Assembly: GCF_020711235.1 (NCBI RefSeq)
Contig: NZ_JAJFAV010000003.1
Coordinates: 310,001-374,000 of the forward strand
Length of the DNA stretch: 64,000 bases
From: Hymenobacter sp. 15J16-1T3B
Lineage (GTDB): Bacteria; Bacteroidota; Bacteroidia; Cytophagales; Hymenobacteraceae
Direction: 5' to 3'
Shown piece by piece: positions 14,703 to 16,514 of this stretch; positions within the stretch are counted from its first letter, which is position 1, and the number at the start of each line of letters is the position of its first letter. The position numbers and the translations under genes are program-made. The notes under the pieces were generated by a model that made no database searches, was not told the DNA's origin, and saw only the letters and a program-made list of their open reading frames with translations.

Positions 14703-15158
14703 TCAACGCACCCGCTTCCAGACCTGCGCCCGGCCCACCAAGGCAAAGCCGATGTAGCCTTTGACTTCGAGCAGATCGGGGGCTACCGAGCGCACGTAGC
14801 AGGAGTAGGTGCGCCCGTTGTCCGGATCGTAGATCTGGCCGCCGTCCCAGCGGTTGTCCTCGCGGTTGAAGCGCAGGTCTTGAATAATGGTCAGGCCCAC
14901 GTGGGGTTGGGTGCGGCGCTTGGGGTCGGGGTTGTGCACGTCGAGGCGGGGCTTGCCCTCGGCGTCGGTGGGGTGCAGCAGCTGCACGATGCGCCCGCAC
15001 AGCTGCTCGCCGCAGCGGTAAAACTCCACCTGGGTTTCGCCGTGCTCGTCGCTCCACACGCCCAGCGGCATGGCCGGGGTGGCAGTCGTTTGGGCCGGCA
15101 GCCCCGCGGGGCCGGCCAGCAGCAGCACGGTCAGAAACAGAAAACGGAGGAGGTGCAC
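14703..15158 (-). CDS. DUF2147 domain secreted protein (copy 1)
   Basis: A 151-aa exported protein. It starts at a GTG and has a signal peptide (core LLRFLFLTVLLLAGPAGLPA). The DUF2147 domain shows PLGVWSDEHGETQVEFYRCG, the conserved CGRIV after a second Cys, NPDPKRR, GGQIYDPDNGRTYSCY and EVKGYIGFALVGRAQVWKR. DUF2147 folds as a lipocalin-like barrel and its function is not established. It is a tandem paralog of the gene at 15290 and shares its length and motif order. Confidence 0.88.
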   Translation of the reverse strand: MHLLRFLFLTVLLLAGPAGLPAQTTATPAMPLGVWSDEHGETQVEFYRCGEQLCGRIVQLLHPTDAEGKPRLDVHNPDPKRRTQPHVGLTIIQDLRFNREDNRWDGGQIYDPDNGRTYSCYVRSVAPDLLEVKGYIGFALVGRAQVWKRVR

Positions 15159-15289: not shown

Positions 15290-15727
15290 TTATTTTACCC
15301 GCGTCCAGGTTTGCGAGCGGCCAATCAGCGAGAAACCAATGTAGCCTTTCACTTCCATGGTGTTGGCGTTGAGCATCTTCATGTAACAAGAGTAGGTCTT
15401 GCCGCTCTCGGGGTCGTAGATCTTGCCGTCGTCCCACTTATTGGCCTCGTCGTACTCGAAGTCCTGCATGAACACCAGGCCCAGGCGCGGCCGGCTGCGC
15501 AGCTTGGGGTCGGGGTTTTGCGAGTCGGTTTTGGGCTTGCCCGTGGCCGGGTCGTTGGGCACCGTCAAGGACACGATCTTGCCGCAGAGCTTATTGCCGC
15601 ATTTGTAAATCTCAAACGTGGCTTTCTTCTCGCCGTTGGTCCACACACCCAAGGGCGAGAGGTTTTGGGCGGAAGCAAAGCCGACGGCGCCCAGCAGGAA
15701 CACTAGGCACAGGAGGAGCTTTTTCAT
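15290..15727 (-). CDS. DUF2147 domain secreted protein (copy 2)
   Basis: A 145-aa exported protein with signal peptide MKKLLLCLVFLLGAVGFASA. The start at 15727 fits this signal; a frame extended by 15 residues adds nothing. The DUF2147 motifs are SPLGVWTNGEKKATFEIYKC, CGKIVSLTVPNDP, NPDPKLRSRP, GKIYDPESGKTYSCYMK and EVKGYIGFSLIGRSQTW. The two Cys pairs seen in copy 1 are conserved. It has its own terminator downstream and probably its own promoter upstream. Confidence 0.9.
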   Translation of the reverse strand: MKKLLLCLVFLLGAVGFASAQNLSPLGVWTNGEKKATFEIYKCGNKLCGKIVSLTVPNDPATGKPKTDSQNPDPKLRSRPRLGLVFMQDFEYDEANKWDDGKIYDPESGKTYSCYMKMLNANTMEVKGYIGFSLIGRSQTWTRVK

Positions 15728-15761
15728 GGTCTGAAAAGGGTAGGAAGTGAGGTTGGTGGGG

Positions 15762-15769: not shown

Positions 15770-15938
15770 CAAAAGCAGCTCGACGGCGCAACATTGTCCG
15801 GTACGGCCGCATTGGCAAGGAGTATACCAAGCTTCCGGTAGCTTCGTCAGTAAGCCCGACGGCGCTAAAAATAATAGCGCTGATAATCAGTTTTATGCCG
15901 CTGAAACGCCGCAAAGACCGAAAAAAACCAGCTTTTTA

Positions 15939-15969
15939 TTTTGAACCATTCGTACCACATATAACTTTA
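15939..15969 (+). promoter_or_regulatory. Strong Bacteroidota-type promoter of a short transcript
   Basis: A TTTTG at 15939-15943 (-33 type) and TAACTTTA at 15962-15969 (seven of eight matches to TAnnTTTG) are separated by 18 bases, in an AT-rich pocket of a GC-rich genome. The predicted start of transcription is near 15975. No other intergenic region in this window shows both boxes this clearly. Confidence 0.55.
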
Positions 15970-15974
15970 GTAAC

Positions 15975-16293
15975 CGAAGCGAGTGCTTCAGCCCCGGCCA
16001 GCGGACCTAAGTTGCTGGTAGCGCCCCCGGTGGTTATGTGTCACCAAAAAGAAAGGAGGTACAAAATGTCTGATAGTCCCAAATCCATCCTGCCAAGCCT
16101 GAGTAATGTCGTTCGCTTCACCGCCGAACGCGCGTAACACTCAAGTGTCGCGGGGGAGCGTATGTTTCCCTGCATTACGGCAGGTCTGAACTAAGATGGC
16201 CGCACCGGTATCCCCGGTGGCCGGTCGCTTGGTAAGATGGCCCCAGGATTAGAGGCCCGGCTACCTGTGAAGGCAGCCGGGCCTCGCTGTTTT
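15975..16293 (+). ncRNA. Predicted ~320-nt structured transcript containing a micro-ORF
   Basis: The limits are set by the promoter at 15939-15969 and the terminator at 16252-16293. The 5' part can fold: GAAGC/GCTTC and CCAGC/GCTGG hairpins may be closed by TAACC (15971-15975) with GGTTA (16032-16036). After the micro-ORF at 16066-16137 come a CTGC/GCAG hairpin, an imperfect GGCCGCACCGG/CCGGTGGCC hairpin and a direct repeat TAAGATGGCC (16192-16201 and 16233-16242). It does not match tmRNA, RNase P, 6S or any riboswitch known to the annotator. It is not followed by a gene on the same strand, so a leader role is unlikely. It could be a dual-function RNA or only an mRNA for the peptide. Confidence 0.5.
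16066..16137 (+). CDS. 23-aa micro-ORF with extended Shine-Dalgarno
   Basis: The ATG at 16066 opens 23 codons (MSDSPKSILPSLS, then a basic-acidic end RFTAERA) closed by TAA. Six bases upstream of the ATG lies AGAAAGGAGGT (16050-16060). This is an 11-base match to the expected complement of the Bacteroidota 16S 3' end (ACCTCCTTTCT, recalled and not checked). Such sites are rare in this phylum, where the anti-SD is sequestered. The peptide has no signal or membrane segment and resembles no family known to the annotator. It lies inside a short, strongly promoted and terminated transcript. Expression seems likely; the function is unknown. Confidence 0.5.
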   Translation: MSDSPKSILPSLSNVVRFTAERA

Positions 16294-16294
16294 C
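16252..16294 (+). terminator. Terminator of the short transcript
   Basis: The stem GAGGCCCGGCT (16252-16262) pairs perfectly with AGCCGGGCCTC (16275-16285) and is followed by GCTGTTTTC. Confidence 0.85.
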
Positions 16295-16326: not shown

Positions 16327-16514
16327 CCGTAGTCATTGCCAGCGAAGCGCGGCAATCGTTGCTTTCGTGGCACAGCGGTTCAACTGGCACCGACGCAAAC
16401 GCCCCCGCGCGAAACCTAAGACTCGGTTTCGCGCGGGGGCGTTTTAAGCTTGTAGGGATTGCGTCGGCGCTGCTACTAGCCGAAGGATTGCTTCGCGTTA
16501 CTCGCAATGACTGC
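16327..16514. repeat. ~190-bp palindromic repeat element carrying an internal terminator (copy 2)
   Basis: The outer arms are 16329-16362 (GTAGTCATTGCCAGCGAAGC and on) and 16485-16514 in inverted orientation. The inner part shares ATTGCGTCGGCG-TG-TACT with the copy at 3288-3480, and the left flank GGTTCACCCCGT is also shared. The inner hairpin differs completely in sequence. This element and the terminator before it fill the 413-base gap 16138-16550; no gene was found there. Confidence 0.75.
16397..16445. terminator. Strong hairpin terminator inside repeat element
   Basis: A 20-bp perfect stem (16397-16416 with 16425-16444; core CGCCCCCGCGCGAAACC) is followed by TTTT on the + strand and preceded by AAA, which gives a T-run on the - strand. 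It may terminate the convergent NlpC/P60 gene as well. Confidence 0.75.

Follow-up and report, generated by a model that had tools for sequence, protein, structure and literature searches.

We report that positions 15939-16293 of the window, a stretch of 64,000 nucleotides from Hymenobacter sp. 15J16-1T3B, are supported by comparative sequence analysis as a stand-alone, promoted and structured RNA gene. Its transcript would combine an extended Shine-Dalgarno sequence (SD) with a 23-codon open reading frame (ORF) that itself appears to be one strand of a long hairpin. Judged from the matches found in other genomes, this class of RNA extends well past Hymenobacter, to other Cytophagales and to more distant Bacteroidia, and the gene is carried by many soil and water Bacteroidota. 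Its parts are listed here.

15939-15943, + strand: promoter box of the -33 type, TTTTG, read directly and conserved as TTTTGAAC
15962-15969, + strand: promoter box of the -7 type, TAACTTTA, read directly and from alignments
15976-15989, + strand: P1 hairpin, GAAGC-GAGT-GCTTC, located where the RNA is expected to start, with compensatory changes
15990-16034, + strand: P2 stem-loop region with a semi-conserved loop CCTAAG.TGCTGG, from alignments, the stem judged by eye
16050-16060, + strand: extended SD, AGAAAGGAGGT, complementary to the 16S 3' tail over 11 nt
16066-16137, + strand: 23-codon ORF, MSDSPKSILPSLSNVVRFTAERA (ATG 16066-16068, TAA 16135-16137), read directly, with length conservation and pN/pS
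16075-16079, + strand: 5' strand of P3, AGTCC, partner of GGATT at 16246-16250
16085-16098, + strand: 5' strand of P3', within the ORF, 14 positions against 16227-16240 with one mismatch
16138-16226, + strand: tip of the rod and its returning strand, 3' of the stop codon, from swap and shuffle tests
16227-16240, + strand: 3' strand of P3', GCTTGGTAAGATGG, kept across Hymenobacter's family
16246-16250, + strand: 3' strand of P3, GGATT, conserved, directly 5' of the terminator
16252-16293, + strand: terminator hairpin (about 16252-16285) and weak U-tract, from direct reading and fold

Both Bacteroidota promoter boxes are present, 18 bases apart, as the original prediction had read them, and a promoter of the form TTTGAA[CT]-N14-24-TAnnTTTA lies upstream of 110 of 132 family-type loci. 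The folded 5' part that it had also proposed is borne out by P1, which covaries in relatives: compensatory changes occur in five of its six pairs when 24 sequences are compared (26 cells, where shuffled data give 7.5 ± 2.9; 0/500). As a whole, the RNA (15975-16293) is more stable than its dinucleotide shuffles, with a z of -4.0. The 'perfect terminator', on the other hand, was overstated, because the U-tract behind the hairpin (GCTGTTTT) is poor, and a consensus terminator scan of the window lists none at the 3' hairpin of the RNA. Alignments show better U-tracts in the copies of relatives than in that of the window.

The 16S rRNA of the same genome ends in GGATCACCTCCTTTCTGGAG, and AGAAAGGAGGT therefore pairs perfectly with it over 11 bases, so that the comparison with the genome's exact 16S 3' end, proposed as a check, comes out at 11/11. 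The SD does precede the short ORF as predicted, with the correction that five bases rather than six separate it from the ATG. For the copy in the window, the 11-bp SD-anti-SD duplex has a computed energy of -18.5 kcal/mol (with ViennaRNA, not the program of McNutt et al.), and the mean over 37 sequences is -19.2 kcal/mol. Such pairing goes far beyond the normal and lies within the 9-13 bp of rpsU-type mRNAs. The bare 11-mer occurs at three places in the 6.33 Mb genome, which is the chance level (about 3 are expected at equal base frequencies, and the reversed control gives 4); we judge the SD to be real because it is conserved, being nearly invariant among relatives of the RNA. One of the three sites is the 16S gene, another has no start codon behind it, and the third is the RNA gene, which thus holds the genome's only exact 11-mer SD ahead of a start codon. 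The view of the SD as exceptional is supported. The in-silico fold leaves it less than clearly open, at a mean unpaired probability of 0.46. One copy of the RNA, L087 from an incomplete genome (G276), carries a broken SD, AAAGAAAGGTGC, right before the ATG.

The 23-codon ORF behind the SD, ending in TAA, was confirmed by direct reading, and comparison across genomes provides strong signs that it is translated. Its length is 18-23 codons in 180 sequences, which start with ATG (161) or GTG (19), leaving out L087 and 6 of 186 sequences with short flanks. The same range is found in all 37 clusters formed at less than 80% identity, where frame +1 gives 4-44 codons, and seven more distant members of the RNA have 19-23 codons. 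A set of 35 distinct Hymenobacter-type ORFs gives a pN/pS of 0.34 when read in frame and of 1.44 and 1.24 when read in the other two, and 14 of 22 third codon positions are variable compared with 13 of 44 positions elsewhere, a modest excess (Fisher p 0.016). As paired sites can distort pN/pS, this is support rather than proof for a peptide, and the value of 0.34 allows for a functional one. The peptide is not bS21, as had been stated: the 23-aa ORF is unlike that protein, and rpsU lies elsewhere in the genome (G000:C38). Within Cytophagales the residues MS(S/N)P...LS and a late GV recur. Between families the peptide varies while pairing and ORF length persist; its middle is free to change, and its N-terminus in family f23 reads MTSSS, MLCSN or MNRLS. 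Furthermore, the conserved residues coincide with conserved RNA pairing. A longer ORF of 80 aa that shares this frame (15895-16137) was rejected as the conserved gene, since 41 of 44 representatives are interrupted by a stop in frame no more than 40 codons upstream; the window copy is one of the three without. In L269 (G474), a long and perfect inverted repeat (CAGTAGTCAAAATGAA...TTCATTTTGACTACTG) is made up of the last codons of the ORF and the sequence that follows its stop.

From its third or fourth codon onwards, the ORF pairs with the segment between stop codon and terminator. Beside the start codon lies P3 (AGUCC/GGAUU, replaced by UUCC/GGAA and UUUCC/GGAAA in f23), followed by P3', whose strands read AAAUUUUGUCAAGCC/GGCUUGGUAAGAUUU in L033, AAAUUUUAUCAGGUU/AACUUGGUAAGAUUU in L036 and AAAUUUUAUCAAACACU/GGUGUUUGAUAAGAUUU in L085, with a further helix, P4, above it in the rod. 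Neither RNAalifold nor column scans recovered this rod from MAFFT alignments, because its strands shift, and alignment-free swap and shuffle tests were used instead. Native duplexes reach -29.2 kcal/mol versus -20.5 kcal/mol with partners from other species. In all 37 cases the native pairing is stronger than the average of its swaps, although the native partner ranks first in just 7 of them. Against dinucleotide-shuffled 3' strands, z is below 0 in 44/44 (mean -2.9, with 29 below -2); the window's own GC-rich copy, at a z of -0.83, does not beat its shuffles. In alignment A2, the P3/P3' pairs are formed in 99.5%, compared with 24-62% when slid; no covariation of P3/P3' is found within A2, since both strands are nearly invariant there. 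That native pairing exceeds the mean swap throughout therefore supports the view of the ORF as one strand of a long conserved hairpin, with its stop codon predicted near the apex.

Conservation in relatives, for which the original prediction had suggested a search by covariance model, turned out to be clear, so that the outcome it had named as refuting, a lack of conservation in related genomes, does not hold. By blastn, the RNA is found in 136 of 200 genomes of Hymenobacter's family, covering five of six genera, and model R1, built on the 5' module, matches 55 of 291 genomes of the order: 45/45 in the family itself, which includes a genus that blastn missed, 7/8 in f5, 1/1 in f17, 1/10 in f20 and one in f19. 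This last match (L090 in G406; E 0.005) was rejected for being without the SD architecture. R2, a model of the rod, matches 32 of the 291, losing many GC-rich family members, and 8 of 395 genomes of the class outside the order, of which G750 was rejected as it has no extended SD. With model R3, 15 of 325 genomes outside the order matched, and upon reading seven were accepted and eight rejected; in f23 it matches 5 of 13 genomes. Additionally, a pattern scan of named genomes gave at least 120 matching stretches, in which conservation of the start is not independent, since the start and TCTART were part of the search pattern, while the stop was not. Among the matches listed are Hymenobacter, Adhaeribacter, Rufibacter, Sabulibacter, Rhodocytophaga, Chryseolinea, Chryseosolibacter, Ohtaekwangia, Dawidia, Cesiribacter and Nafulsella, along with records of Cyclobacteriaceae and Fulvivirgaceae. 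A match on a viral contig was discarded, being an ordinary longer gene with an SD. The Hymenobacter genome carries a single copy of the RNA; one family genome, with 5% contamination, has two equal-scoring copies on one contig (G198:C110).

Within the family the surroundings of the gene are stable. Motif matches place DUF2147 upstream on the opposite strand in 47 of 50 loci, NlpC/P60 downstream on the opposite strand in 45, and an M61 peptidase in 40. The window follows this arrangement: by Pfam, the next gene is NlpC/P60 (16551-17117) on the other strand, so the claim that no gene follows on the same strand holds. Outside the family, no neighbour is common to all of 22 loci, some being common among close relatives, and the next gene occurs in both orientations. 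As neighbours and orientations vary in this way, we read the locus as a stand-alone RNA gene; regulation in cis was rejected on the same grounds, there being no downstream gene common to all loci outside the family. Beside the RNA in the window lies an adjacent tandem pair of DUF2147 genes (14703-15158 and 15290-15739, - strand).

To our knowledge, the one known target of specialised ribosomes in Bacteroidota is rpsU. In McNutt et al. 2023 (PMC9976891), the anti-SD of Bacteroidia ribosomes is described as sequestered in a pocket formed by bS21, bS18 and bS6; in F. johnsoniae, ribosomes that lack bS21 show a preference for the extended SD of rpsU, and an rpsU with such an SD is reported for only about 20% of Cytophagales, mainly Cyclobacteriaceae. 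The screen described in that study (PMC9976891) covered genes of the genomes. A design of this kind would probably miss an unannotated 23-codon ORF. By its energy, the SD of the RNA belongs to the class that bS21-less ribosomes were found to use at rpsU (PMC9976891). The RNA resembles the rpsU mRNA of Bacteroidia (PMC9976891) in its extended SD, which is complementary to almost all of the 16S 3' tail and for which ribosomes with a free anti-SD are predicted to have a preference; in contrast to that mRNA, it encodes neither bS21 nor any other ribosomal protein, has its ORF inside a long hairpin, and is stand-alone and structured.

Does the RNA then take the place of rpsU? In a first set of genomes, the rpsU SD was absent from all ten that bear the RNA (our own and nine others), and also from four without it. 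The second set, in which 28 handles reduce to 27 genomes as L295 and L296 belong to the same one, has an SD on a copy of rpsU in 8 of 27 RNA-bearing genomes, namely those of L146, L151 and L204 (on one paralogue each), G449, G761, G798, G829 and G528. Because RNA and rpsU SD coexist in these eight, the idea of the RNA as a strict replacement of rpsU autoregulation is weakened. At the family level, an SD start pattern like that of rpsU was found in none of the 45 genomes of Hymenobacter's family and in many of f19, where no credible copy of the RNA occurs; these are family-level blocks, not independent events. In Hymenobacter's family, the extended SD that other groups have on rpsU is found on this RNA. 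The genomes of L146, L151 and L204 and several of f23 each contain two or three paralogues of bS21 (rpsU), often with an extended SD on only one of them, and ribosome heterogeneity by exchange of bS21 is possible.

How might such an RNA work? The reading we favour, tentatively and at somewhat less than an even chance, is that of a stand-alone RNA gene whose transcript would be translated by ribosomes that have their 16S tail exposed, its fold being reset by translation. Mainly these free-tail ribosomes would load on the RNA, because normal Bacteroidota ribosomes hide their anti-SD; by analogy with rpsU, they would be ribosomes that lack bS21 or have displaced it. As the anatomy suggests, their passage would unzip the hairpin and free its 3' strand, and where these ribosomes are absent the hairpin would close, so that the conformation of the RNA would reflect the state of the 30S platform. 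Sensing of free anti-SD fits the RNA, although we infer it by analogy. With no gene behind it, the RNA would act in trans, through the freed strand, its own stability or the peptide; this least supported step is speculative. Weighing against the favoured reading are the limited opening of the SD in the in-silico fold, the low z of the window copy against its shuffles, the absence of covariation of P3/P3' in A2, a pN/pS that leaves room for a functional peptide, and the eight genomes that have an SD on rpsU as well. A bolder form of this proposal, which we consider rather improbable, would make the RNA a ribosome-state sensor: 30S subunits with an unsequestered anti-SD would be recognised by a dedicated ancient RNA, the tiny ORF would serve as a molecular zipper, and translation by those ribosomes would decide whether the 3' strand acts as a trans regulator. 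Such specialised ribosomes in Hymenobacteraceae and relatives would then have the RNA, not rpsU, as their main target in the genome.

Several simpler explanations have to be weighed against this. If the RNA simply encodes a functional micropeptide (18-23 aa), its strong SD would do no more than open a start region held in a hairpin. The in-frame selection in Hymenobacter-type ORFs, the maintained start and stop, and the residues recurring in Cytophagales would all follow from it, but the middle of the peptide and the f23 N-terminus change while the RNA pairing persists, conserved residues sit where pairing is conserved, and the excess of variable third positions is modest. We regard this as a real, if somewhat unlikely, alternative. 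A decoy or storage RNA, which would hold immature or bS21-less 30S subunits by its SD with translation as a by-product, seems distinctly unlikely: an SD near the maximum possible and nearly invariant, in a stable structured RNA without a downstream gene, is what it would call for, yet pure binding would not need the maintained length and frame of the ORF, and effective titration would require a very high copy number.

In leader-peptide attenuators, translation of a short ORF changes RNA pairing next to a terminator, much as it would here under the mechanism that we propose, and the short ORF, hairpin and terminator do look attenuator-like. Nonetheless, no regulated downstream gene was found on the same strand, with NlpC/P60 lying on the other and with neighbours and orientations varying outside the family, and control of a neighbouring gene in cis, by attenuation or a leader peptide, is disfavoured as highly improbable. 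Equally improbable is a hok-like mRNA for a type I toxin, in which the 3' part folds back on the translated region, which encodes a hydrophobic toxin, and whose distribution is multi-copy or on plasmids. While the small ORF and its long-range pairing with the 3' part recall such fold-back inhibition, the peptides listed are polar, with no long hydrophobic or membrane-spanning stretch seen by eye, the SD is not the paired element, and the RNA is neither multi-copy nor plasmid-like in distribution, being a single-copy gene whose location within the family is fixed.

Dual-function RNAs such as RNAIII/hld and SgrS/SgrT are likewise structured, with their own promoter and terminator, and contain a short ORF that is translated, as that of the present RNA appears to be. 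The present RNA differs from them in that the ORF itself would be a strand of the main helix, and Rfam reveals no sequence relation. Among the open-access PMC papers listed, we recognised none that describes it, and ARAGORN detected no tmRNA in the window. The RNA is a clear family absent from Rfam 15, for which covariance models were built in this analysis. If the proposed mechanism is true, a second and widespread target of specialised ribosomes would be a structured RNA, and ribosome heterogeneity, translation of a micro-ORF and RNA folding would be directly linked in a way that can be tested with a simple reporter. Rfam itself gave no match at the gathering score in the window or in 13 related loci, and at E<=10 only matches far below the cut-offs of their families. 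Most of these weak matches in the window fall on a long, near-perfect inverted repeat at 16399-16442 (ACGCCCCCGCGCGAAACC...GGTTTCGCGCGGGGGCGT), between the RNA and the NlpC/P60 gene, which is perhaps the terminator of the convergent gene.
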